20,991 bases of DNA from a virus: IMG/VR virus record IMGVR_UViG_3300010391_000097, positions 1 to 20,991 of that record, one strand, 5' to 3'. Below are positions 1-17,786 of the stretch, piece after piece (the first letter of the stretch is position 1; the number at the start of each line of letters is the position of its first letter). A program made the position numbers and the translations under genes. The notes beneath the pieces were generated by a model. That model was given only the letters and a program-made list of their open reading frames with translations. It was not told the DNA's origin and did no database searches.

Positions 1-1122
1 TCCAGTGCTTGCGGCAGACAAGCCAGCTGATGCACCTTGCGCCATTGAAATAAACGCCGCGTTTCCCGCATCAACAAGAGCCAAAGATGTTGGGTCAATA
101 GCACCTGTAACTGTAAGTTTACTATTTACAACTACCGCACCCGTACCATTCGGTGAAAGAATAATATCTCCATTTGCGCCATCAGTAATGGTAATCGTTC
201 CAGTTGTGGCATTACCCGTTTGAAGCGTCAAATCATTATTTCCTTGAGAACGTAAAATACCTACGGCTGCGCCATTACCCACGGAAATACCATTGATAGA
301 ATTTTCAACTGTCATTCTTCTCACTAAAAATAGACCAGTTGATGCATAGAAAATCATGATACCTTTTTCAGACCCCGCAGTCACTTCACTAGCAACACTT
401 TGAAATCCTCCAAACAACGCTACTGAACCTACAGAATTATTCCCATAAAAATGCACTCCACCAATATGGTCATTATTCGCAGGTGATGCAGAATTATGAT
501 AGTAATCTAATATTGGTCCTTCTGGACCAGCATCATTACTTTGAAAACGTATCCCATTTTGGGGATTTGAACCAACAAACCCAAAAATACCAGACTTTTC
601 TATGTAAAATTCAGCCACATTTCTAGAAGAAGCAGTATAAAGTTGATTAACAATTAAGGTATTCAAAGGACTAATTGCCGTTCCAGTAATTTCTAATTTT
701 GCATTTGGAGTATTTGTACCAATCCCCAAAATATTATTAGTATCATCCCAGAAAAAGTTTGGATTATCTTCCTGTAACTTTAATCCGGCACCAACGAATA
801 AGACTGAACCAACTGTGCTACCAACAACATCAGTTACTCCAATCTCAATGTCACTTACACCAGGAATTGTGACCGTGACTGCGTTACCAATAGCCGTCGC
901 AGTCACTCCGGCTCCCACGAAATCAAACGAAGAAACAGACGGAGTGATAGATATGCCCTCATCAAATACTTCTATATTAGACGACGCAATCACCGCCGAT
1001 ACCTTAAGACGACCTGTTGCTGGGTCAACAAGTAGACGCCTAAACTCCGCCGCCACATCATCCGTTACTCCAAGTAGTGTATGACGATGGTTATCATCAA
1101 TTCGTGAATTCTGATTTGCCAC
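1..1122 (-). CDS. Tail fibre-like protein, partial (runs off left edge)
   Basis: This is an open frame of 374 codons without a stop that leaves the window at base 1, so the C-terminus is missing. The start is GTG at 1122; an in-frame TGA lies three codons upstream (1129-1131), so no earlier start exists. The protein begins ANQNSRIDDNHRHTLLGVTD, nearly the same N-terminus as the 975-aa fibre encoded just upstream, including the LLVDPATGRLKVSA end of the shared 37-residue module. Behind it come Gly/Thr/Asn-rich beta-type segments such as GIGTNTPNAKLEI and ITDGANGDIILSPNGTGAVV, typical of phage fibre shafts and trimeric beta-helices. Inferred role: an alternative receptor-binding fibre joined to the virion by the common N-terminal module. 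No Shine-Dalgarno sequence is visible. Fibre class is fairly sure; receptor and exact position on the particle are unknown. Confidence 0.75.
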   Translation of the reverse strand, partial: MANQNSRIDDNHRHTLLGVTDDVAAEFRRLLVDPATGRLKVSAVIASSNIEVFDEGISITPSVSSFDFVGAGVTATAIGNAVTVTIPGVSDIEIGVTDVVGSTVGSVLFVGAGLKLQEDNPNFFWDDTNNILGIGTNTPNAKLEITGTAISPLNTLIVNQLYTASSRNVAEFYIEKSGIFGFVGSNPQNGIRFQSNDAGPEGPILDYYHNSASPANNDHIGGVHFYGNNSVGSVALFGGFQSVASEVTAGSEKGIMIFYASTGLFLVRRMTVENSINGISVGNGAAVGILRSQGNNDLTLQTGNATTGTITITDGANGDIILSPNGTGAVVVNSKLTVTGAIDPTSLALVDAGNAAFISMAQGASAGLSAASTG

Positions 1123-1132
1123 AGAATTTCAA

Positions 1133-1348
1133 TTAGGAAATCTTACTGCTTACATCAGGAATTTTATTCGCAAGTTCTTTATGTTTCTGATACATATAAC
1201 TTTCTTGAAGCTTGCGGATAAAATATTTCTTTATAAATTCTTCCTTAGTCAACTTCTCTTTGATCAATGGATTGTATTCCCTGTATCCATTAGCCTCACA
1301 AAAACAATTCGCAATCTCGTCATCCTCAATTTTGATTGTTATTTCCAT
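1133..1348 (-). CDS. Hypothetical 71-aa protein between two fibre genes
   Basis: A small charged protein starting MEITIKIEDDEIANCFCEAN, lying between the stop of the 975-aa fibre (28 bp upstream) and the GTG start of the next fibre (10 bp downstream). The first part looks like a short beta strand followed by an acidic turn; the middle (KEKLTKEEFIKKYFIRKLQE) is a probable amphipathic helix. There are two cysteines (CFC) but no metal-site pair. I do not recognise a family. Its place inside the fibre cluster suggests a chaperone, assembly factor or accessory of the fibres, but that is inference from position only. Upstream DNA is AT-rich without a clear ribosome binding site. The overlapping plus-strand frame at 1181-1384 looks like its shadow. 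Confidence 0.6.
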   Translation of the reverse strand: MEITIKIEDDEIANCFCEANGYREYNPLIKEKLTKEEFIKKYFIRKLQESYMYQKHKELANKIPDVSSKIS

Positions 1349-1375
1349 ATTAGATTAAGTAAATTAAATTTATTA

Positions 1376-4303
1376 TTAAACTAAATTTACCCATGCGCCT
1401 GCTTCGTAACCTTGGAATTTATTAGCTGTACTATTGTAAAGCACCATGCCATTCACCGCCGTTAATGCGTCACGTTGAGTAGTAGTCATTCGAGGAAGAA
1501 GCAGCGCTCCGACCGTGCTAGTCAAGTCTAAGAGGGCAGAAACAGCTGGTGCCAACGTGCCCATGCCGATATTATTCCTAGAAGCGTCAAGAAAGAAAAG
1601 ATTAGGGTCGGTGTCACCCTCCATTCTAACATCAGCGTCAGTGCCTTGATCGTTGAAGATAACTCCGCCGCCGCCTTGAGTCCTAATCGCTATTTTATTT
1701 GTCCCAAAGGTCAGATTAGCCACTTCCAAACCAACTTGGGTTGTTATCACGGGAGTGCCAGTGCTAGTGCTAAAAGTATCGCCGATGAAAATGTTGAATA
1801 GACTGCCAATCGTCCCGTTATAACCCCCAGTAATGGTAGCTTGTATGAATTCACCTGTGACACTCGTGATATTATTGGAAGAAGTGCCACCAACTATCGG
1901 AGTATTATTTAGGCTGACCGCCGATCCCAATGCCACCTGCGGGTCAATGACCGGCACCATCCTGAAACACTGGATGTTGGCTGAAGCTTTTTGAGTAAAC
2001 GTTAAATTCCAGCCCAAAGAATTAGTGGTTTCACCAGAACAATCAAATAATTGCGTCGACGTGCCAACCAATCCGTTAATCTGAAACGTAGATGCTGGGA
2101 CACTGGTGCCGATACCGACACGGTTTGTCGAAGCATCTACAAATAACAAATTAACATCTGTATCACCTTCAACTCGGAAATCCGTATTAGCGTCACCCCC
2201 CTCATTGAAGGTAACATTCCCAGCGAAGGTTCTGATAGCCCAATTATTCGTGCCAAAAGTCTGGTTATTGATTTGAATGCCAATCTGATTGGTCAGCGTC
2301 GGCGTACCTGTCCCCAGATTAGAAACATCAGTTATCAGAAGTGAAAATAAATTTGTGACTGTTCCACTGTAAGTATCCTGGAATCGAGGAAAGATAACAT
2401 CAGCCTCGACGTTGGTAATCGCATTAGAGGAAGTCCCGCCAATGCCAATTGAGTTATTCAAGCCGATCACTGTCGTTGTCGCCATTCCTGGGTCAATCGT
2501 CGGAACAAATCTTAATGCCTGGGTAGTTAAAGCAACACTCGGATTATGAATAAAAGCAAAATTGACACCAATAACATTAGTCGAAGTTCCAGTTAATCCT
2601 AAAATTCCATCCGAAGTAGTACCAGCAATTTCCAATGTAAAATCAGGCGTAGTCGTACTAATACCTACATTAACCGCACCTCCACCTGTTGCACCTAAAA
2701 TTAAACTGTTGCTTGCTCCTACAATCGCACCAGTCCCAATTGCTGTAGCATTAGTCAGTCCATCTACCCCCACATCAGCAAGATAGCCGATTAAGGTAAT
2801 ACTGTTACCTGTAACATTGGTTATCCCCGCATTTTTACCTATCGCAATGTTTTGGAATCCTGAAGTATTAGCAGACAAAGAACCGACACCAATACCGATA
2901 TTGTTACTGGCATTAGAATTGTTGAGCGCACCACCACCTAACGCGACGTTAAAATCACCCGTAATGTTAGATTGCAACGCCCCAGTACCAACACCTGTGT
3001 TGCCATTCCCGGAAGTATTAGAATTGAGAGCGTTAAACCCAAAACCTGCATTATCATCTCCCGTAGTCAAAGCCACTAAAACATTTTGACCAACACCCGT
3101 GCCAAAAACTCCTACGGCTGTTTGATTACCTGCGTTTATTCCCGCATAGAATGCTCCTACTTGCGCTGCCGGAGAATGAATGTAAAGATTGGAATCAGCG
3201 TAAATTATCGAACCAGTATTGATACGGAAATTCCCTTCAACTTGCAACTTTTCTACCTGAGCGGATGTGCCAATACCAACACGTCCCAAACTGTCTATTC
3301 TCATCCGTTCAAGAGAAACTCCAGAACCAGTCGGAGTAGTATTAAATACTATTCTGCCTGGCATACTGCCCAAGCCAGGCGTTCCATCAACCTGGAAATC
3401 TATTAAACCTGTGTAGAGGTTTGTCGCACCATCAAAACCAAGGCCAAATATCTCTAAAGTAATATCACTATCAGACGCAATCGTAGGTGCGGCAAGTGTC
3501 CCTTCAGAATGAGCTCCACCAATAAGTGGAAAGATTATACCAGCAGTTTCCTGAATATATCCTCCAAACGTGGGATAAGTATCATCGTGGCGCTGGATAA
3601 ATTGGAAAGTAGAAGGGAACCCTAAAAAATTTAGAACATCACTGTTAGTACCCAGACCTAAAGCCTTATCGGTGTTATTCCAAAACAAAAAATTATCTCC
3701 AAAAATTGTAGTCGCAGTATCCCAAAACGTCACCTGGCCAGGTGAACCAGATCCAGTAACAGCCGATCCGCTAGTCGGCGCAAAAGTAATTGAAGCTCGA
3801 ACATTATCCAAAGTTCCTACACCTGACGCTGAAGAATCTACTTGTACCGTAACGACATCTCCAGGAGAAACAACCACGTTATTTGTTACGTCATTACCAG
3901 TGGTTACTGTAGCGGCCAATGTCGTTGTAAGTGCAGATGGTACGCCGTTAATCCGCACTGTGATGATGGTATTCTGGTCGTAACTATTCACCGACGCATC
4001 CACGAATAGACGATTCAAAGTACCCCCTACTGGTGCCACCATACCCGCTTGAGCCTCTACCGTAATGGCCGATCCAGAAGTACCAGGCACAAGATAAAAT
4101 GTTCCTGGAGCTAACATCACCCCTTCTTGAGCACCAAAGAATAGAAAACCACCACCACCAAATCCCGAGATGTTAGCCGATACCTTCAATCTTCCCGATA
4201 TTGGATCTACCAGGATTCGTCGCAGTTCCGCCGATAAATCATCAGTCACTGCGAGAAGCGAATGCTGCCTATTATCATCAATTTTTGCGTTTTGGTTTGC
4301 CAT
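1376..4303 (-). CDS. Large tail fibre / receptor-binding protein (975 aa)
   Basis: Residues 1-43 form the N-terminal module shared with its neighbours (KIDDN...AVTDD...ILVDPISGRLKVSA). Residues about 98-176 look like a beta-sandwich domain. GIGT-type shaft segments appear near 340-356, 547-560, 728-741 and 912-920. Residues about 414-505 are YadA-head-like repeats of about 14 residues (DDNAGFGFNALNSNTSGN, FNVALGGGALNNSNASNN). Residues about 547-735 and 729-919 are two tandem copies of one long unit with matching landmarks (GGTSSN, TFGTN, AIRT, EGDTD, FVDAS/FLDAS). The C-terminus (LLLPRMTTTQRDAL to the final WVNLV) matches a tail common on phage and metagenomic fibre proteins. The expected product is a trimeric fibre or adhesin on the virion. 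ATG start, no clear Shine-Dalgarno; the gene begins 1 bp after the 93-aa gene ends. Confidence 0.85.
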   Translation of the reverse strand: MANQNAKIDDNRQHSLLAVTDDLSAELRRILVDPISGRLKVSANISGFGGGGFLFFGAQEGVMLAPGTFYLVPGTSGSAITVEAQAGMVAPVGGTLNRLFVDASVNSYDQNTIITVRINGVPSALTTTLAATVTTGNDVTNNVVVSPGDVVTVQVDSSASGVGTLDNVRASITFAPTSGSAVTGSGSPGQVTFWDTATTIFGDNFLFWNNTDKALGLGTNSDVLNFLGFPSTFQFIQRHDDTYPTFGGYIQETAGIIFPLIGGAHSEGTLAAPTIASDSDITLEIFGLGFDGATNLYTGLIDFQVDGTPGLGSMPGRIVFNTTPTGSGVSLERMRIDSLGRVGIGTSAQVEKLQVEGNFRINTGSIIYADSNLYIHSPAAQVGAFYAGINAGNQTAVGVFGTGVGQNVLVALTTGDDNAGFGFNALNSNTSGNGNTGVGTGALQSNITGDFNVALGGGALNNSNASNNIGIGVGSLSANTSGFQNIAIGKNAGITNVTGNSITLIGYLADVGVDGLTNATAIGTGAIVGASNSLILGATGGGAVNVGISTTTPDFTLEIAGTTSDGILGLTGTSTNVIGVNFAFIHNPSVALTTQALRFVPTIDPGMATTTVIGLNNSIGIGGTSSNAITNVEADVIFPRFQDTYSGTVTNLFSLLITDVSNLGTGTPTLTNQIGIQINNQTFGTNNWAIRTFAGNVTFNEGGDANTDFRVEGDTDVNLLFVDASTNRVGIGTSVPASTFQINGLVGTSTQLFDCSGETTNSLGWNLTFTQKASANIQCFRMVPVIDPQVALGSAVSLNNTPIVGGTSSNNITSVTGEFIQATITGGYNGTIGSLFNIFIGDTFSTSTGTPVITTQVGLEVANLTFGTNKIAIRTQGGGGVIFNDQGTDADVRMEGDTDPNLFFLDASRNNIGMGTLAPAVSALLDLTSTVGALLLPRMTTTQRDALTAVNGMVLYNSTANKFQGYEAGAWVNLV

Positions 4304-4586: not shown

Positions 4587-5292
4587 ATTTTTTCTTCATC
4601 TCCTTATCAGCCAGTTTAAGAGAAGTTTGCTGAGACGTGATATGCCTTTGCTCTTTTCTGATTTTCTCCCATTCTTTTTCGGCTGAAAGATTGAGAACGG
4701 CCAATGATTTTTTTTTATCTTCAACTTCTTTGATTTTTTGTTCAACTTCTTTTTCTTTCTTTTTCTGTTGCTCATAGAACTTTTCCCATTGCGACATCAA
4801 CATGGTAGAACTCTGTTTGACAAATTGCTGCTGATCTCTAAGGGAATCCTCTTTGTCTTTGACAGTAAGTTCTCGGAATTGTAATTCCGCCTTCATCTCA
4901 TCCAATCTAAACAGTTCTTGGATAAGTTCTTCACGATCTCGTCTTATTTGTGTTACTTCTAAGTCAATCTTACCTTTCATCTCTCTGACAGCCTCAAAAT
5001 CAGCTTGCGTTTTTTGTTGTATCTGAGTTATTGGTTCAAGTAATTTTTGTCGAGCTAATAAAAGCTGTTTTACTTCACCATCTAACTCATTTTTTTTATC
5101 AAGACTCAGTTGCATCGAACTATCAAGATCCTTTTGTATCTGCTCTTTTTCTTTTTCAGAACTTGACTTTTGCAAGTTAATTTTTTGCAATTCATCCTTC
5201 ATCCACAAGGATAAATCCTCTTTCTTTTGAGCCAATCGGATTAACTCATCTTTTTTCTGGTTTTCCACTTCCTGTGGCCTGAATAAACGCAT
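4579..5292 (-). CDS. Long coiled-coil structural protein (about 237 aa)
   Basis: Almost the whole protein is Lys/Glu/Gln-rich heptad-like sequence without prolines or glycines, for example KDELIRLAQKKEDLSLWMKD and EVEDKKKSLAVLNLSAEKEW, predicting one long alpha-helical coiled coil. It ends KKYG. The open frame can start at 5379 (ATG GGT ATA), but that lies inside the preceding gene. The ATG at 5292 gives MRLFRPQEVENQKKD and sits 7 bp after the upstream stop at 5300, so it is preferred. No enzyme motif is visible. It lies between a zinc-finger-tailed protein and the fibre-module genes. Possible roles are a tail needle, internal rod, tape-measure-like protein or fibre scaffold. It is short for a tape measure and has no hydrophobic segment. 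Function unassigned. Confidence 0.75.
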   Translation of the reverse strand: MRLFRPQEVENQKKDELIRLAQKKEDLSLWMKDELQKINLQKSSSEKEKEQIQKDLDSSMQLSLDKKNELDGEVKQLLLARQKLLEPITQIQQKTQADFEAVREMKGKIDLEVTQIRRDREELIQELFRLDEMKAELQFRELTVKDKEDSLRDQQQFVKQSSTMLMSQWEKFYEQQKKKEKEVEQKIKEVEDKKKSLAVLNLSAEKEWEKIRKEQRHITSQQTSLKLADKEMKKKYG

Positions 5293-5299
5293 AGGACTA

Positions 5300-5764
5300 C
5301 TATTTCTTTCTAAGTGAACATGTGTTTTTGTGCCTAGATGGTGAATCACACTCAGGACACCGTTTAGCTCTATCCCCATAAGTTACATTCAACTTAGCTG
5401 AAGGTGAAGATGTACTTAGAAGATCTATAGTGCCTGAAATGATTTCTGGCTGCGTTTCTACTGGTTCTGGAACCTTAGACCCAATTTGCTGCAAGAGCTC
5501 TGTTTCCAGTTTCGTTTTATCATCTGCCTGAATCGTTTGGACGATTTCCCCAAAACATTTTCGGATCAGCTCATTCCTAGTCTGATGACTGGTAACCAAC
5601 TTTTGTTTATTAAGTTCCCGGTCAATCAGGTGATTCGCGAAGTGCATCGCCAAGTAATCCTGCAAATAGATTGACTGCCCTGCTTTGAAGTCGTATTCCA
5701 CTCCATCCCAAGTGTAAGTAAAATCCTCATCCGTCCAGTTTGTAAACAACATCGCTTTTGCCAT
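5300..5764 (-). CDS. Hypothetical virion-module protein with C-terminal zinc finger (154 aa)
   Basis: The N-terminal part (MAKAMLFTNWTDEDFTYTWD) is a beta-rich region with aromatic residues. Residues about 35-95 are helical, and a Pro/Ser/Thr-rich linker spans about 98-125. The last 20 residues contain C136-x2-C139 and H145-x3-C149, a CCHC-type zinc site ending in a basic tail (RKK). The organisation of folded domain, flexible linker and small basic zinc knuckle suggests nucleic-acid or protein docking, but no named family is recognised. It follows the decoration-like gene after an 87-bp gap holding a hairpin. The ATG is preceded by AAAGAAAAGAGAT, at most a poor ribosome binding site. It may be a head-completion or neck protein, by position only. 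Confidence 0.65.
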   Translation of the reverse strand: MAKAMLFTNWTDEDFTYTWDGVEYDFKAGQSIYLQDYLAMHFANHLIDRELNKQKLVTSHQTRNELIRKCFGEIVQTIQADDKTKLETELLQQIGSKVPEPVETQPEIISGTIDLLSTSSPSAKLNVTYGDRAKRCPECDSPSRHKNTCSLRKK

Positions 5765-5812
5765 ATCTCTTTTCTTTAACCGTTGGTGAAGCGGTAATTT
5801 AGCACCACTAAC

Positions 5813-5835
5813 GGGGCGTTTTTACAGAACGCCCC
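5813..5835. other. GC-rich hairpin in the gap between two structural genes
   Basis: GGGGCGTT at 5813-5820 and AACGCCCC at 5828-5835 are perfect inverted copies with a 7-base loop. On the minus-strand transcript the hairpin lies between the 155-aa decoration-like gene and the 154-aa gene. No T-run follows it in the minus direction, so it is not a standard intrinsic terminator. It may stabilise the 3' end of the upstream message or weaken read-through, giving different expression levels on its two sides. Confidence 0.5.
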
Positions 5836-5851
5836 CGAAACTGAACCTAAG

Positions 5852-6319
5852 TTATCCAAGAATATTCGTCACTTCCGGATAATCAATTTGCGCGGTAATC
5901 ACGCCACCGACTGTAGCTGAACGGGACCACGCTCCTACCACAAGGTCTCCGGCCACTACTGCGTCATCCACCGACCCAGCAGCTGCTGCGTCAATGAAAA
6001 GCGGAAAATTATCCGCCACAGTAGCCGCTTTAGCATTCGTTACCGACCCCTTGACCAGATACCAGCCAAACCTACTTGCAATGGTTGCGGCCATAGCAAT
6101 AGCCACAGCACCAATCGCATTGGGTACTAGTAAGATAGTCAAGAAAGCCTCATCGTAGTTGACCCACGAACCCGCAACCGTTGAAGCTACTCCGGTCAGA
6201 TAGATATACTCATTTCCTGAGCTATCTACTGCTCGAGTTCCCAATGGAACCTGGACCGAGGTATCCACGATACTGGTATTACCGTGAAAGGCTTGTGGAT
6301 AACCTGTAAGATTAGCCAT
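5852..6319 (-). CDS. Probable capsid decoration / head-associated protein (155 aa)
   Basis: A small Ala/Val/Gly-rich beta protein starting MANLTGYPQAFHGNTSIVDT, with a surface-type pattern (GTRAVDSSGNEYIYLTGVAS, GWYLVKGSV, ADNFPLFIDAAAAGSVDDAV, GDLVVGAWSRSATVGG). Phage genes downstream of the major capsid gene often encode proteins of this length and composition: a GxEYxYL strand, a GWYxxKG strand, and a C-terminal segment referring to position and hydration. Some of these are decoration or cement proteins. The assignment rests on composition and position; there is no catalytic motif and no signal peptide. The Ala-rich stretch near residues 60-85 is hydrophobic but interrupted by Arg and is probably buried rather than membrane-spanning. 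No Shine-Dalgarno precedes the ATG. Confidence 0.6.
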   Translation of the reverse strand: MANLTGYPQAFHGNTSIVDTSVQVPLGTRAVDSSGNEYIYLTGVASTVAGSWVNYDEAFLTILLVPNAIGAVAIAMAATIASRFGWYLVKGSVTNAKAATVADNFPLFIDAAAAGSVDDAVVAGDLVVGAWSRSATVGGVITAQIDYPEVTNILG

Positions 6320-11279: not shown

Positions 11280-12911
11280 TTATACATTACGCCAATCTTC
11301 TTCCCGTTCTTCATGCTGATATTGCAAAGGATTATGCGAAATAGTCCCGTGAACACTGATCTCTGGCGCTGTTTGAAAAATTGTTTTATTAGCGTCGAAT
11401 AATTGCGCTTCTTCAGCAAAACGCGCCATACCAACTCGCCAATAAGCTGTCGCGTGTACCCAATGGTCGTTGCCATCGGAAGTGAGCCAACGAAACTGCG
11501 GCGCGCCTAGAATGTCTTGCACCACGACTCGATATAACGTTTTCCAGTGCTTCACATAATCAGCCCAGTCGTCCTGTGTGCCTTGCAGTGGCACACGCCG
11601 GTCAGCAAATTCGTCAATCACTACCTGTATCAAACGATTACGGTCTGCTTTTACGTTGCCCCATTCGTCGCCCTGACCCCATTTGATAAGCTGTAAGGTT
11701 TTCCTGTCCTTTACATAATGGCACAAGTACACTCGACCAGGATATTTTTCACGCAACTTTCGCGGTTCTGTCAAGTCAGGCAGAGCGTCAACCACTGCGA
11801 TAGAGCGCGGGTAACGTTTCAAAAGTTCTTCTATCGTCTCCCAGCTTTCTGTAACGCCATAATAAAATAATCCTTGCGCGTTGCCTATTACATAATGTTT
11901 TTTCTGTCCACTGTCGCAACCTATCACCACTTTTTGCTGTTGGTTTATGGCTGACGTGAGATTACGCAGGATCACGTCCGGCACAACCGTGTTGCCCTCG
12001 CCAACGTAAGGCAAACCCAAAACAAAATTATGAAAATACTCTATGCTCTTGGTCTCGTAGTACTCGCAAATCTGTTGTGCGCTTACCCACGGCGCGATAA
12101 ACAGTGGTATCCAATACCCCGACCATTCACGCCCCGGATACTTCGCGATCCAGTCGCCCTTGCGGCGTTCTTCATTCGTCAACTCCTTGCTACAATGTTT
12201 GCAAACGTAAATCTTTTTCTTCTGGTCAATGCTCTCTGGCCAACTCATCACTTGTTGCGTGTCGCAACCCTTGCACTTAATGTGCCAATTCTTCTGGTCA
12301 GACTGCGCCCAGTAACGTGACACCCCGTTGCCCTCGACAGATGGATTGCTAAAATGCCATTCCCATTTGTACTTCGAGTGTTGGAGACGCGATGCGTACT
12401 GCGCGATAACGTCCTGCTTGCTCCTGTCTTCTTCGTCAAAAATGTTGAGATCGGACGACACCATCAACGCCGCTTTCTGTGTCCACGTTCCGCGATAATA
12501 AATTACGTTGTTGCCAACTTTTTTCTGCTCAATGGTATCACGATCACGAACGTATTCTTTGAGTATAGGATTCTGTTCAATGATACGGTTGACCTTGCCA
12601 CCAACGAAATCGTTGATGTCGTTAGACGTGGGCAATGTGTAAATGATGTCGAGTCCTTTGTTGCGCGCGGCCCATAGGCTTTTTATAATGGCCATTGTGC
12701 TAAAGCCAATTTGCGCGGCTTTCAAAATCACTTGCTTCGGCGTCCAATCAACATAAATGTCGTACAAAAATAAGTGAGAGAGCAAATCGAGCTTGGTACC
12801 TTGCTCTGTTTTTATGTTGTAAAGGTCGCAAAAAAGTACAGTATCAACTTCAGCCAACTGCTTGGCCAATGCTGGGGTGATCTCCGGTATCTCGATGTTT
12901 TCCTTGCTCAC
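11280..12911 (-). CDS. terL: Terminase large subunit, GpA-type (543 aa)
   Basis: This is the packaging ATPase-nuclease. The deviant Walker A is KAAQIGFST (residues 64-72), with lysine at the start of the loop as in lambda gpA-type terminases rather than GK(S/T). Walker B is LNIFDEED (155-162). A zinc-ribbon-like pair, C213-x2-C216 and C237-x2-C240, sits between ATPase and nuclease, as in GpA relatives. Nuclease acidic residues are probably D333 (VVIGCDSG) and D375 (IAVVDALPD), with a third near 445-485. The start is GTG at 12911, overlapping the small subunit by 62 bp. No ATG lies close by and a later GTG or TTG start is possible. Substrate is concatemeric phage DNA; it docks on the portal encoded next. 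Confidence 0.85.
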   Translation of the reverse strand: MSKENIEIPEITPALAKQLAEVDTVLFCDLYNIKTEQGTKLDLLSHLFLYDIYVDWTPKQVILKAAQIGFSTMAIIKSLWAARNKGLDIIYTLPTSNDINDFVGGKVNRIIEQNPILKEYVRDRDTIEQKKVGNNVIYYRGTWTQKAALMVSSDLNIFDEEDRSKQDVIAQYASRLQHSKYKWEWHFSNPSVEGNGVSRYWAQSDQKNWHIKCKGCDTQQVMSWPESIDQKKKIYVCKHCSKELTNEERRKGDWIAKYPGREWSGYWIPLFIAPWVSAQQICEYYETKSIEYFHNFVLGLPYVGEGNTVVPDVILRNLTSAINQQQKVVIGCDSGQKKHYVIGNAQGLFYYGVTESWETIEELLKRYPRSIAVVDALPDLTEPRKLREKYPGRVYLCHYVKDRKTLQLIKWGQGDEWGNVKADRNRLIQVVIDEFADRRVPLQGTQDDWADYVKHWKTLYRVVVQDILGAPQFRWLTSDGNDHWVHATAYWRVGMARFAEEAQLFDANKTIFQTAPEISVHGTISHNPLQYQHEEREEDWRNV

Positions 12912-13296
12912 GAAGTGCGAAGGCTAAACCTATAATTTTTTCCAAACCTCCAATATAGACTTGAACGGCTGGAGTACTTTTCTCAGACTCATAATAACCC
13001 TTTACCTTATAGGCCATATCTAATGACCTACTCACTGCTTGTGTCTCAGGTTCGTCAGGATTATTCGGGTCTTTTTTATTGAGCAATGCGCGATGCTTCT
13101 TAATAAGAAAATCATCACTAATACGATTACCAAAAAGCTCTTGGAACCCTTTACTGTCAGTCAATTTTGCAGGGGCCGTCGCAACTTGATGGTTGTATCC
13201 TGCCTCTCGCATAGCCGCACTTACAGAGACTCGTCTATTTTCGTCTATCTGTTTTTGGATAATAGCTACGGCTTTTTTTTGCATTAACGTAGCCAT
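12850..13296 (-). CDS. terS: Terminase small subunit (about 148 aa)
   Basis: This gene lies directly before the large terminase. After a helical start (MATLMQKKAVAIIQKQIDEN), residues about 20-60 fit a DNA-binding helix-turn-helix (RVSVSAAMREAGYNHQVATA, then LTDSKGFQELFGNRISDDFL), followed by KKHRALLNK and a helical oligomerisation part, as in other small terminases. It would recognise the packaging site and stimulate the large subunit. Two starts are possible: TTG at 13305, which overlaps the upstream stop, and ATG at 13296, which has an AGG about 10 bases upstream in GGAAAGGCAGG. The ATG is preferred. It is the gene with the clearest ribosome binding site in this half. The 3' end overlaps terL by 62 bp. 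Confidence 0.75.
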   Translation of the reverse strand: MATLMQKKAVAIIQKQIDENRRVSVSAAMREAGYNHQVATAPAKLTDSKGFQELFGNRISDDFLIKKHRALLNKKDPNNPDEPETQAVSRSLDMAYKVKGYYESEKSTPAVQVYIGGLEKIIGLAFALREQGKHRDTGDHPSIGQAVG

Positions 13297-13301
13297 TTTT
13301 A

Positions 13302-13532
13302 TCAACCTGCCTTTCCGTATAATTTTTTAAAAACTTTGCCCGTGTACCCTTCAGGCTGACAAAAATCTCGCAAGTGATCTTTGAGGTACTGCTTCGACGA
13401 TGCGCCTGTGCTGTCAAGATTATACCTCACTGTTCGCCCGCAATTCTTGCAACACTCAACTCGAATGTCAGACGCGTCAACTTCAATCTCAAAATCACAC
13501 GTCGTCTGTTTATTGCACAATGCTATACTCAT
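13302..13532 (-). CDS. Small zinc-binding protein (76 aa)
   Basis: Cysteines at C6, C12, C27/C28 and C31 (the last in CCKNCGRTVRYN) make a probable zinc ribbon around the beta segment DFEIEVDASDIRVE. The C-terminal half is helical and basic (KQYLKDHLRDFCQPEGYTGK). Its ATG overlaps the stop of the 82-aa gene (ATGA), so the two are likely translationally coupled. It precedes the small terminase gene. Similar small CxxC proteins occur near phage packaging genes, but I cannot name a family. It could be a transcription or packaging cofactor; no function is claimed. Confidence 0.6.
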   Translation of the reverse strand: MSIALCNKQTTCDFEIEVDASDIRVECCKNCGRTVRYNLDSTGASSKQYLKDHLRDFCQPEGYTGKVFKKLYGKAG

Positions 13533-14059: not shown

Positions 14060-14092
14060 AATCTATGCAAAATTTTCTAAATCTATGCAAAA
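14060..14092 (-). promoter_or_regulatory. Tandem 13-bp direct repeats after the leftward promoter (operator candidate)
   Basis: AATCTATGCAAAA occurs exactly at 14060-14072 and again at 14080-14092, a 20-bp period equal to about two helical turns. On the minus strand they read TTTTGCATAGATT and lie just downstream of the predicted transcription start near 14102. Two identical sites on one face of the helix fit a dimeric repressor or activator. The 81-aa HTH protein at 17541 is a possible ligand, by inference only. Confidence 0.5.
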
Positions 14093-14108
14093 ACCTCTCA
14101 ATATCGAC

Positions 14109-14266: not shown

Positions 14267-14294
14267 ATTTTATCATATCCAAATGTCTTGTCAA
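14267..14294 (-). promoter_or_regulatory. Leftward promoter P2 (consensus -35)
   Basis: On the minus strand: -35 TTGACA (14294-14289, full match), 16-bp spacer, -10 TAAAAT (14272-14267, 5 of 6) with an upstream TG (TGATAAAAT). The predicted start is near 14260. It reads into the structured element and then through P1 toward the virion genes, so the virion operon or a small RNA has a second start. It also lies 53 bp from the iteron array, close enough for origin proteins to affect it. Confidence 0.6.
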
Positions 14295-14346: not shown

Positions 14347-14636
14347 GTGACGGATCGTGACGGATAGTGACGGATAAAAAAAATCATCCGTCACTCCATT
14401 TTTATGCACGCCCGCTTACATAAAATCCAAAAAAGCGACCAAAAAGTGACGGATTGACGGATGAGTGACGGAAACTTTATACCTATATATATATATATTC
14501 TTCTCGTAAAAAAGAAAGAAGTATCCGTCAATCCGTCACGTTTCCAGTGTTTACCCCCATTCTGTGTTGGCCTGCTTGGGTAAAAAAAGAGTGACGGATA
14601 AAAAAATCATCCGTCACTGATCCGTCAATCCGTAAA
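14347..14636. repeat. GTGACGGAT iteron array in large inverted repeat; probable replication origin
   Basis: Forward copies of GTGACGGAT or close variants start at 14347, 14357, 14367, 14446, 14454 and 14465, with another at 14591. Inverted copies start at 14386, 14523, 14531, 14609, 14620 and 14628 (the last degenerate). The left half (three forward, one inverted, 51-bp gap, forward pair) is mirrored by the right half (inverted pair, 51-bp gap, one forward, three inverted). The centre, 14463-14522, has one more copy and a TA run. Two near-identical hairpins (14367-14394 and 14591-14617) have A-rich loops. Position between divergent modules, helically phased repeats, an AT-rich core and a helicase gene nearby all fit an iteron origin. 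The array may also act as operator for both flanking operons. Confidence 0.7.
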
Positions 14637-14840
14637 TCCCCTTCGCTCAACCTAGCCAAATAAATAGTTATACCGTACAGTACCCATCTTTCCCCCCGTT
14701 CTAGTGGCTATCCCCTCGACACCTTAATATAGTTGTCCACAGTTACCCCCTTATTATCCTCTTGACACCATAATAGGCCCTATGCTAAGCTGATTACCAG
14801 TTAGATAGCCAAGTACACAACATTCGGACCGGCCAGTACA
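14637..14840 (+). promoter_or_regulatory. Non-coding stretch: DnaA-box-like site, tandem 15-bp motif, possible promoter
   Basis: No coding frame is supported here. CTCGACACCTTAATA (14715-14729) and CTTGACACCATAATA (14761-14775) agree at 13 of 15 positions, 46 bp apart. TTGTCCACA (14733-14741) differs at one base from the DnaA box TTATCCACA. TTGACA at 14762-14767 followed after 18 bp by TGC-TAAGCT could be a weak extended -10 promoter toward the replication genes. The group fits an origin-flanking control region, but each element alone is modest evidence. Confidence 0.4.
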
Positions 14841-14875: not shown

Positions 14876-15142
14876 ATGCAGATAACAATAACTCCCGCCG
14901 ACCTCGAAAACGACGCCGCTTTTTTCCAACCGTTTGTTGGTAAAAGAGTTATCGTCGAAACTGAAAGTCAAAGTGATTGGATGAGTAGCAAACAAAAGCT
15001 TGTTGGCCTACTCCACGAGTTTAAAGGTAACTTCTACCTCCTGAAACAGCGCAATTCCTCCCGTGGTGTACGGCTTACAAAAATAGAGGCGTTCAAAGGC
15101 TTCCATGCTACCCAATACGTTAAGAGCCTAACCACAAAATAA
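14876..15142 (+). CDS. Hypothetical 88-aa protein, first gene of the replication operon
   Basis: MQITITPADLENDAAFFQPF is followed by VGKRVIVETESQSDWMSSKQ and short alternating strands (KLVGLLHEFKGNFYLLKQRN). This looks like a small beta-barrel (SH3- or Sm-like) protein ending in a basic tail. No family is recognised. It is the first gene to the right of the origin-like array and sits 1 bp before the clamp-like gene. First position after a promoter suggests an early role such as host takeover or origin binding, but this is inference. No Shine-Dalgarno sequence is present; the abutting promoter suggests leaderless translation. Confidence 0.65.
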   Translation: MQITITPADLENDAAFFQPFVGKRVIVETESQSDWMSSKQKLVGLLHEFKGNFYLLKQRNSSRGVRLTKIEAFKGFHATQYVKSLTTK

Positions 15143-15143
15143 T

Positions 15144-15518
15144 ATGCCCATCAAAAATCTTGAAAAGATTGTCCATAAATCTAAGCCAAACATCACCGGC
15201 GTGCTTGTAACCGATAAACACTTTATCGCTACAGATTCATATAAACTGGTAGAAATCGAGCACAAGGGCGAGCCACTCCCCGCTAAGTGCATAGCGGCCG
15301 ACCCCAAAGCGTACCCCGAAGTCAGCCAACTCTGGCCAACAGCCAAAGCAGCCCGCACCATCCGTTTTACCGCCGGATACCTGAAGCAGGTTGCCGAATT
15401 CTTTGAGAAAAACGGCTCGACCTACATTGACATGGAACTCCAAGATGATAATCTGTCGCCCGTGGTGTTCAAGAGCGCTGGTATCCGTGCCTTACTCATG
15501 CAAGCATTAGCAAACTAG
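15144..15518 (+). CDS. Short sliding-clamp-like protein (124 aa)
   Basis: The segment ITGVLVTDKHFIATDSYKLV resembles the GV-(x)n-ATDG(H/Y)RL strand pair of bacterial beta clamps (DnaN). The second half (TIRFTAGYLKQVAEFF, then YIDMELQDDNLSPVVFKS, ending IRALLMQALAN) resembles the last clamp domain: FNxxYL helix, SPVVI strand, LLMP end. At 124 aa it is a third of a normal clamp (about 370), so it would be a one-domain or minimal form needing multimerisation, or a clamp fold used for another purpose. It lies in the replication operon next to the SF3 helicase. No DNA polymerase is in the window, so a host polymerase partner is possible. Family link moderately supported; function inferred. Confidence 0.5.
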   Translation: MPIKNLEKIVHKSKPNITGVLVTDKHFIATDSYKLVEIEHKGEPLPAKCIAADPKAYPEVSQLWPTAKAARTIRFTAGYLKQVAEFFEKNGSTYIDMELQDDNLSPVVFKSAGIRALLMQALAN

Positions 15519-15766: not shown

Positions 15767-15806
15767 GGCTTGGGGGGTGCTTTTTTGGTATGAGAACTGG
15801 CCATAT

Positions 15807-17258
15807 ATGTCTGGTCCTATAAAAAACGACGAGATCGCCAGCCTTCTATGCTCAAAGCCCATACTTGGGGATGTTTTAGGGTACTTTGACACCAGAGACA
15901 TGTTCTATATCTGGGAGAAAATCAATGAAGAAAATGTTGAAAATATGGGATTTTGGAAGTATATCTCGGACAATAAAATGAACAAACTGATATATCGAAC
16001 CCTGAAAAACGAAGGCAAAGACCCAGGTTCCCCGCTCTATGGCAAAACAATTTCCAGCCAATTCCTGAATGAAATTGTCCTATTATTTAAGATTCTTTGT
16101 ATGATAATTTTTGAAAACCAGGAGGACTCCTCCCGTTTAGCGTTTAACGATGGGTGGCTAAACCTCAAAACAATGGAGCTAGCACCTATTGATAAAACGC
16201 GTCTGGTTACCTGGCACCTGCCATTTCCCCTTACTGAAATTATGTCATTAGCCGATCTTCCGTCTTCACAGGCCATCCCTACATGGTTAAATTATCTCAA
16301 CACTACTTTGGTCAAAGAAGATACTACAGAGCCGGATGAAGAACTAATCGAGCTTATTCATGAAATGTTCGGGTTTTTTTTACTTGATGAGCTGAAAGAG
16401 GCTAAGGCGTTTTTCCTGGTGGGAACCGGCGAGAATGGCAAGTCGGTCATGCTTTCGGTTATCCGGGCCATAGTCGGCGACGAGTTTTGTAGCTCAATGA
16501 ACCTACAGACACTTACAATGGACAAATTCGCCCTGGCTGATCTTGTGAGCAAGCGGGTGAACATTTGTTCAGAAGAAGAAAGCAAGTATATCCACTCCTC
16601 TAAGTTCAAAGAGCTGGTACTCGGGGATGGTATCGTGGATGCCGAGAAGAAATACGGCTCACACTTTTCATATAAGCCACGGCTAAAGTTCATTTTCTCA
16701 ACTAATGAGATGCCAACATTTGAGTCGGCCAACCATGGCTTGCGCCGGCGCCTGATGATTATCCCCTTTCATAGGAAGTTCGACGTGAGCGATCCGGTGC
16801 GGGACAATAACCTTACGCAAAAGCTCATTGCCGAGCTTCCCGGCATCATCGCCTGGGCAATTGTGGGAGCGCGCAAACTAATAAAGAAAAACTACCTCTT
16901 TTCTATGCCGACAGTTTGCGCGGATATGCTGGGGGAGCTGGACGAGGATTCATCATCGGCAATTGAGTTTTTTAGGCGCAATTACGAGTTATCGGAGGAC
17001 GAAAACCAGTTCGTAAATAATGACGTGGTATATAACGAATACGTTTTTTCCTTGCGGGAGACAAAACGGCATCCCAAAAAAAGAAACATATTTTTTCGTG
17101 ACCTTTGCCACAATATCCCCAAATTCAAAAAGTCATCACGATCCAAAAATGATGGAAAAATAAGGGGTTATCTACTCTGCCCCCTTGGCGCTATGGCGGA
17201 GAAATATCAGATACAACGCATTGCCGAAGGGTTTAGGACGGATGACTTGGCACTCTAG
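15807..17258 (+). CDS. P4/D5-type SF3 replicative helicase (about 483 aa)
   Basis: An AAA+ SF3 helicase of the phage/plasmid primase P4-family C-terminal type. Counting from the alternative GTG start at 15777: D5_N-like helical region about 60-200; Walker A GTGENGKSV (216-224); Walker B region VNICSEEE (261-268); motif C KFIFSTNEMP (304-313); arginine-finger region GLRRRLMIIPF (321-331); and a winged-helix-like C-terminus. A catalytic primase (prim-pol or TOPRIM) domain is absent; the protein starts close to the D5_N domain. It would unwind DNA at the origin, probably as a hexamer. The ATG at 15807 (MSGPIKND) is preferred; GTG at 15777 adds ten residues. Neither has a good ribosome binding site. 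Likely initiator partner of the iteron array. Confidence 0.85.
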   Translation: MSGPIKNDEIASLLCSKPILGDVLGYFDTRDMFYIWEKINEENVENMGFWKYISDNKMNKLIYRTLKNEGKDPGSPLYGKTISSQFLNEIVLLFKILCMIIFENQEDSSRLAFNDGWLNLKTMELAPIDKTRLVTWHLPFPLTEIMSLADLPSSQAIPTWLNYLNTTLVKEDTTEPDEELIELIHEMFGFFLLDELKEAKAFFLVGTGENGKSVMLSVIRAIVGDEFCSSMNLQTLTMDKFALADLVSKRVNICSEEESKYIHSSKFKELVLGDGIVDAEKKYGSHFSYKPRLKFIFSTNEMPTFESANHGLRRRLMIIPFHRKFDVSDPVRDNNLTQKLIAELPGIIAWAIVGARKLIKKNYLFSMPTVCADMLGELDEDSSSAIEFFRRNYELSEDENQFVNNDVVYNEYVFSLRETKRHPKKRNIFFRDLCHNIPKFKKSSRSKNDGKIRGYLLCPLGAMAEKYQIQRIAEGFRTDDLAL

Positions 17259-17347: not shown

Positions 17348-17599
17348 ATGGACTTGACCAGACCAACCTTCATCGGATCAAAGCTGTGGATAAACCCTAA
17401 AGAATCCGAAATGTGGAAAACTTGCCCCATGTGCGGAGATGTAGGTACTACCTATCCCGACGATAGCACTCCAATGTTCTGCTGCGCCTCTTGCCTTTTC
17501 AAATGTACTGAAGTTGAATATCTTAACCGACTAAACCACTATGAGAAAAAAACCGGAAGTGCTGGATCAGAATCACCCCCTAGTTCAGTTTCACAATAG
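17348..17599 (+). CDS. Zinc-ribbon protein (83 aa)
   Basis: C26-x2-C29 (CPMCG) and C45/C46-x2-C49 (CCASC) make a classic zinc ribbon of about 25 residues. A short helical part follows (VEYLNRLNHYEKK), then a Ser/Pro-rich tail. The frame is open upstream to a TTG at 17273, but the ATG at 17348 directly follows a promoter and gives MDLTRPTFIGSKLW, so it is preferred. The last 59 bp overlap the HTH gene in another frame, so the tail may be unconstrained. Small zinc-ribbon proteins in phage early regions often bind DNA or RNA polymerase; no specific role is visible. Confidence 0.6.
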   Translation: MDLTRPTFIGSKLWINPKESEMWKTCPMCGDVGTTYPDDSTPMFCCASCLFKCTEVEYLNRLNHYEKKTGSAGSESPPSSVSQ

Positions 17600-17786
17600 C
17601 TCTGGCCTCTCCTACCGTAAAATTGGCAAAAAGGTCGGAATGGGGACGAAGAGCGTTTACAACATCCGCAATATGAGGCCGGACGAGATGATGTTGCTGT
17701 CAGTCGGTACGCTGATAGCGTTCCAGGAGAAACTGGGAGTGGAGTTGCTGGGTTACATCAAAGAATATACGAATACTAATAAATAG
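17541..17786 (+). CDS. Helix-turn-helix regulator, XRE/Cro-like (81 aa)
   Basis: Residues 24-44 (SYRKIGKKVGMGTKSVYNIR) fit a helix-turn-helix: helix 2 (SYRKIGKKVG), turn, recognition helix (TKSVYNIRN). The C-terminal part (LLSVGTLIAFQEKLGVELLG) matches the last helices of Cro/CI-type domains (TLLKIADALGVSLDELL-like). It is a single domain, so a Cro-like or simple repressor is expected. It overlaps the zinc-ribbon gene by 59 bp and precedes the next gene by 12 bp. Operators are unknown; candidates are the tandem 13-bp repeat (14060-14092), the iteron array and TTGTCCTAT (15645, 15675). Confidence 0.7.
   Translation: MRKKPEVLDQNHPLVQFHNSSGLSYRKIGKKVGMGTKSVYNIRNMRPDEMMLLSVGTLIAFQEKLGVELLGYIKEYTNTNK

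Follow-up and report, generated by a model that had tools for sequence, protein, structure and literature searches.

Introduction

The DNA studied here, a stretch of 20,991 bp from an IMG/VR virus record (hereafter, the window), carries a dense array of a 9-bp repeat in both orientations, and the question it raises is which function such an array serves and which protein reads it. The array sits in a 904-bp intergenic region between divergent modules: the leftward one contains the large terminase gene and a long run of ORFs where head and tail genes usually stand, and the rightward one is a replication module encoding an SF3 helicase together with PD-(D/E)XK exonuclease-like, SNF2/DEAD-type helicase and Holliday-junction-resolvase-like proteins. 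A preliminary description of this locus had proposed a compact origin between the two modules. Our comparisons give that proposal good support: the array is very probably a phage double-strand replication origin, with the iteron GTGACGGAT read by the D5_N/SF3 helicase, since arrays of this type track the SF3 gene and its geometry is that of the origins annotated in phages Sfi21, A2 and P4. A replication start is thereby proposed for an uncultured phage lineage.

Architecture of the repeat array

Between positions 14347 and 14633 we identified 13 copies of GTGACGGAT: 8 exact (plus strand at 14347, 14357, 14367, 14446 and 14591; minus strand at 14386, 14531 and 14609), 4 with one mismatch (14454 and 14465, plus; 14523 and 14620, minus) and 1 truncated to ATCCGTAAA (14628, minus). 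The window contains the heptamer TGACGGA 12 times over its 20,991 bp, each time within the same 280 bp (14348-14627). When up to one mismatch was allowed, 20 matches were found in the window versus 3.4 +/- 1.6 in shuffles, with none of 100 shuffles reaching 20, and the cluster score of the array was 26.0, compared with 6.4 for the next-best 7-mer cluster of the window.

The copies are arranged in four groups. The outer left group (14347-14394) consists of three forward (F) units (14347-14355, 14357-14365 and 14367-14375), exactly 10 bp apart, and one reverse (R) unit (14386-14394), the last two forming an inverted pair across an A-run. The inner left iterons (14446-14473, plus strand) are GTGACGGAT at 14446, TTGACGGAT at 14454 and GTGACGGAA at 14465, and the inner right ones are R units at 14523-14531 and 14531-14539 (14523-14539, minus strand). 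The outer right group (14591-14633) includes an F unit (14591-14599) and R units at 14609-14617, 14620-14628 and, truncated, 14628-14633; its 14591 and 14609 units likewise form an inverted pair across an A-run. The resulting order, FFFR-51-FFF-core-RR-51-FRRR, is mirrored around a 15-bp TATATA tract, and the start-to-start spacing measured on ACGGA reads F10 F10 F17 R 62 F8 F11 F 56 R8 R 62 F16 R11 R8 R. The number of units, their mirrored order, the two equal 51-bp gaps and the 10-bp periodicity of the first three units thus agree with the preliminary description.

The AT-rich core (14474-14522), the presumed melting site, contains the alternating run TATATATATATATAT at 14484-14498, a 15-bp TATATA tract matched by none of 500 shuffles, and its 30-bp stability ranks in the bottom 0.05% for the window.

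The left (14395-14445) and right (14540-14590) 51-bp spacers separate outer from inner iterons. They had been described as agreeing at about half of their positions, which holds when one is reverse-complemented (27 of 51, versus 8 of 51 when it is simply reversed) and exceeds the agreement in shuffles (13.7 +/- 3.0; 0 of 5000 reach 27). The best local alignment between them is a 28-nt block that is not significant (p = 0.066), and the spacers of relatives differ in length and sequence; the proposed ancient duplicated inversion of the arms is therefore only weakly supported, and we rejected it. Conserved spacer hairpins were likewise rejected: when 30 unique spacers were folded as DNA, the mean z was -0.47.

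Blastn of the array against named phages returned two Vibrio phage matches of 39 bases, Rfam and tRNA scans gave no matches, and no phage-origin paper was recognisable by title among the listed literature matches to the string GTGACGGAT.

The presumed initiator and its position

The presumed origin-binding initiator is the 493-aa SF3 helicase encoded at 15777-17258 (plus strand), which matches the Pfam families D5_N and DUF5906. It resembles the SaPI5 primase-helicase 7ola in sequence (E-value 2.6e-11) and by Foldseek (1.3e-17), and its predicted fold also matches poxvirus D5-type helicases. The model ends in a helix-helix-helix-strand-strand succession, the pattern of a winged helix, at about residues 415-470. 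The replication module beside the array contains a D5_N/SF3 helicase with a predicted C-terminal winged helix, the model being of moderate confidence (pLDDT 73.6, 13 sequences).

Two genes lie between the array and the helicase gene: an 88-aa ORF of unassigned function (14876-15142, plus strand), which is the first gene right of the array, and a 124-aa protein (15144-15518, plus strand) weakly matching phage DNA polymerase/processivity-factor families. The locus departs from the usual D5-SF3 layout in two respects: the array stands 1.14 kb upstream of the helicase gene, as in two terminase relatives of the phage (L126 and L131, see below), instead of directly 3' of it, and no recognised primase was found among the window proteins scanned. 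The 3' position is not obligatory for this kind of origin, since the P4 ori and the arrays of L126 and L131 also depart from it.

No close relatives of the window helicase were found in viral contigs, and this particular array-helicase pair is therefore seen only once. A C-terminal sequence common to the helicases of GTGACGGAT phages was rejected, as BLAST detected no convincing similarity between their C-termini and that of the window helicase; for this reason, the sharing of the word GTGACGGAT could be partly coincidental.

Comparison with known replication origins

The preliminary description had recognised no known origin type, which proved wrong: the layout is that of D5/SF3 origins of phages and satellites, with an AT-rich core between two iteron sets of opposite orientation, and judged by this layout the array belongs to the known Sfi21/A2/P4/SaPI kind. 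The geometry of the array recurs in the annotated origins of Sfi21, A2 and P4, and P4 alpha and the A2 and Sfi21 primases have D5_N, DUF5906 or Pox_D5 domains in common.

In the Streptococcus thermophilus phage Sfi21 (NC_000872, 34487-34784), the annotated 302-bp origin is, as in the window, a non-coding array adjoining a D5/DUF5906 helicase gene, with inner tandem pairs 8 bp apart on both sides of an AT-rich core and outer units of mixed orientation, which in Sfi21 lie 44-46 bp out; however, its iteron is GTTAC(T), the array adjoins the helicase gene at its 3' end and the spacers are shorter. A later paper describes this element as an origin that works independently and is switched on by infection (PMC6356513).

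The rep_origin of Lactobacillus phage A2 (NC_004112, 32208-32717), with the spacing F18 F12 F64 F78 R8 R56 R12 R and the iteron ACGGGAGGAT, and the CL2-type arrays of L. casei/paracasei phages, whose spacing (12, 63, 76, 9, 55, 12) is nearly that of A2 and whose GTGACGGATG is the iteron of the window, share with it a mirrored FF-F-core-RR-RR array and a TATATA core; unlike the window, they lack inverted outer pairs and lie directly 3' of a gene for a primase-helicase of about 770 aa. The A2 and CL2 primases (L293 and L295) are related, being about 43-85% identical by 60-column block, and differ in iteron (ACGGGAGGAT versus GTGACGGATG) and visibly in the wing of their C-terminal domains, which makes them a natural pair for mapping specificity.

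The P4 ori resembles the left arm of the window in its type 1 repeats (FFF R - 43 - FF, or F10F11F22R43F10F), and its initiator, alpha, is also a D5_N protein. It differs in covering one half only, crr being a separate site 3' of alpha, in its iteron GGTGAACA, and in the Toprim primase domain of alpha.

The origins of SaPIs and other PICIs share with the window an SF3-type initiator with a C-terminal DNA-binding domain (predicted in the window) and two iteron sets around an AT-rich region. PICI origins always have two such sets (PMC6092414), and SaPI Rep proteins bind the downstream iterons via their C-terminal domain (PMC7581432). PICIs are satellites that lack a full set of structural genes of their own and have the ori directly 3' of rep, whereas the window encodes a large terminase and a run of ORFs in the head/tail place. 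The inverted pairs across A-runs only look like the iterons of RepA_N plasmid/PLE origins (PMC7145576), and no RepA_N initiator was matched among the ten window proteins scanned with Pfam.

Association of arrays with SF3 genes in viral contigs

IMG/VR viral contigs were scanned with GTGACGGATN{0,20}GTGACGGAT, giving at least 119 loci, and spacing maps distinguished 57 both-orientation from 62 same-strand arrays among the matches listed. Within these listed matches, 47 of the 57 both-orientation arrays adjoined the 3' end of a gene for an SF3 primase-helicase, compared with 4 of the 62 same-strand arrays (Fisher p 2.6e-18); an array was counted if it lay within 400 bp of the gene end, and nearly all were within 50 bp. 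These loci are not all independent, since their helicases, also among the matches listed, form 11 clusters at 80% identity and 4 at 50%. A second sample, of 45 representative SF3 loci, was selected on the helicase without regard to any repeat. In 17 of the 45, compared with 4.6 expected (p 8.6e-7), the bidirectional cluster that scored highest adjoined the 3' end of the helicase gene, with many different repeat words, e.g., GGACACA, TGACGCT and AGTAACA.

Relatives of the phage itself were gathered by terminase (43-65% identity; one was found in a bacterial bin). An array is present in all four whose available sequence includes an SF3 gene (L126, L131, L138 and L143), and none above threshold was found in the 27 without SF3, each with more than 4 kb upstream; L129 carries the L126 array, its sequence stopping before the helicase. 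In L138 and L143 the word is TGACAAC in a related layout. In L126 and L131 the iteron is TCTGCCAGAT, with the unit order of the window (F R 44 F9 F core R8 R 44 F20 R12 R), the same position, equal arms, a TATATA core and outer inverted pairs across a T-run. The expectation that order and 51-bp gaps would recur in relatives thus held for the order, with a different word, and for the equality of the gaps, but not for their length. Repeat word and initiator seem to have changed together between the window and L126/L131, a reading based on few lineages, because the terminases are 65% identical but the helicases, where they align, share only about 27% identity, and the iteron words differ.

Alternative functions

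The same comparisons bear on other explanations. A phage HTH repressor or activator might bind the array as an operator and control the promoters from which the structural and replication modules are divergently transcribed, and the position in the divergent intergenic region would suit it, as would a sigma70-like promoter (TTGACA-16-(TG)TAAAAT; 14267-14294, minus strand) directed into the leftward module 53 bp left of the array, and a gene (17541-17786) whose small product resembles an HTH protein by eye. We consider this improbable: the promoter-like site lies outside the array and is a consensus match only, such sites being no more numerous than in shuffles; the small protein has no Pfam family match and no homologue among the array loci; and in relatives, arrays with this geometry are found at helicase 3' ends, tracking the helicase rather than structural genes, and are matched by annotated origins.

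Iteron arrays serve as centromeres and packaging sites too, and a candidate small terminase gene (12850-13305) stands about 1 kb left of the array. That a segregation protein or the small terminase binds it as a partition (centromere-like) or packaging site is nevertheless highly improbable, given that no ParA/ParB-like gene was found by Pfam among ten proteins of the replication side and its neighbours, and that the 43-65% terminase relatives mostly lack an array, those with SF3 having one with changed repeat words. Finally, although short A-runs and the TA tract are prone to slippage, functionless repeats arising by slippage or chance are scarcely credible for 12 of 12 heptamers within 280 bp, in both orientations and mirror-spaced, with a layout that relatives keep under different words.

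Proposed mode of action and skew analysis

The array itself, its geometry, its conservation and its link with SF3 genes are observed; helicase binding, melting, double-ring assembly and bidirectionality we infer by homology, as follows. The C-terminal winged helix of the helicase would read GTGACGGAT, and subunits loading at the mainly forward left group and the mainly reverse right group would assemble one ring per side, facing the TATATA core; the rings would melt the core and unwind outward, yielding two forks. About 60 bp off on each side, the outer groups may provide extra loading or handling sites, as in the P4 and Sfi21 origins. The compact origin would probably function bidirectionally.

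A skew minimum had been suggested as a check on the origin. The purine-skew minimum does lie at the array (14,786), where it coincides with the switch in gene direction, but the cumulative GC-skew minimum is at 17.6 kb, 3 kb away; in the window, G001 and G002, GC-skew minima are 2-3 kb off on the helicase side. Since both minima are confounded by gene direction, skew is of no help in placing the origin, and GC skew was rejected as an origin locator, contig fragments being a further confounder.

A possible wider rule for D5/SF3 origins

It is possible, albeit doubtful, that D5/SF3 origins obey one spatial rule, namely paired inner iterons, a core, and outer groups 43-65 bp out, with the word swapped wholesale with the initiator and a core that is alternating purine-pyrimidine (TATATA, or CGCGCGCATGTGCGCG in GC-rich phages) and not simply AT-rich. 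If true, origins and initiator specificities would be readable from unannotated viral contigs, in many of which mirrored iterons with exchangeable words beside D5/SF3 helicases can locate origins, and the same comparative rule would supply matched initiator-iteron pairs for specificity studies. Of specialist interest are a geometry that is kept while the words are exchanged, and the alternating cores, GC-rich in some relatives.

In many GTGACGGAT arrays, the core is a CG-rich, perfectly alternating purine-pyrimidine tract of 21-26 bp, e.g., ACGCGCGCGCATGTGCGCGC, placed between F and R iterons (L006-L009, L011, L019-L023, L042 and similar loci); many of these GC-rich-core loci are close relatives of each other. 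Such tracts are Z-DNA-like and occupy the place in which one would look for an AT-rich melting site, raising the question of how these origins open; under the wider rule, they would need a different opening mechanism.

Additional observations

Two loci link arrays to Prim-Pol genes. In L126, a Prim-Pol primase gene (5115-5990, minus strand) lies between array and helicase, where the window has its two small ORFs (14876-15518). In L161, another terminase relative, a TGTGACT array (2161-2411) lies immediately upstream of the gene for a fused Prim-Pol/VapE-like primase-helicase (69-2147, minus strand), which suggests that the origin rule extends to this family.

A DnaA-box-like sequence, TTGTCCACA, is present 97 bp right of the window array (14733-14741, plus strand), with a putative role. 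Matches to TTRTCCACA also occur within 250 bp of the arrays in L126 (6057 and 6531), L131 (5230), L129 (1075) and L161 (2184), the motif being otherwise sparse (1-3 occurrences per locus). Upstream of the leftward module, a 20-bp direct repeat (AATCTATGCAAAATTTTCTA / AATCTATGCAAAAACCTCTC, 14060-14099) may represent an operator. Lastly, about 25 loci without an SF3 gene (L003, L005, L026, L029, L030, L037, L043, L049 and others) carry same-strand GTGACGGAT pairs exactly 27 bp apart, possibly a coding repeat of nine residues.
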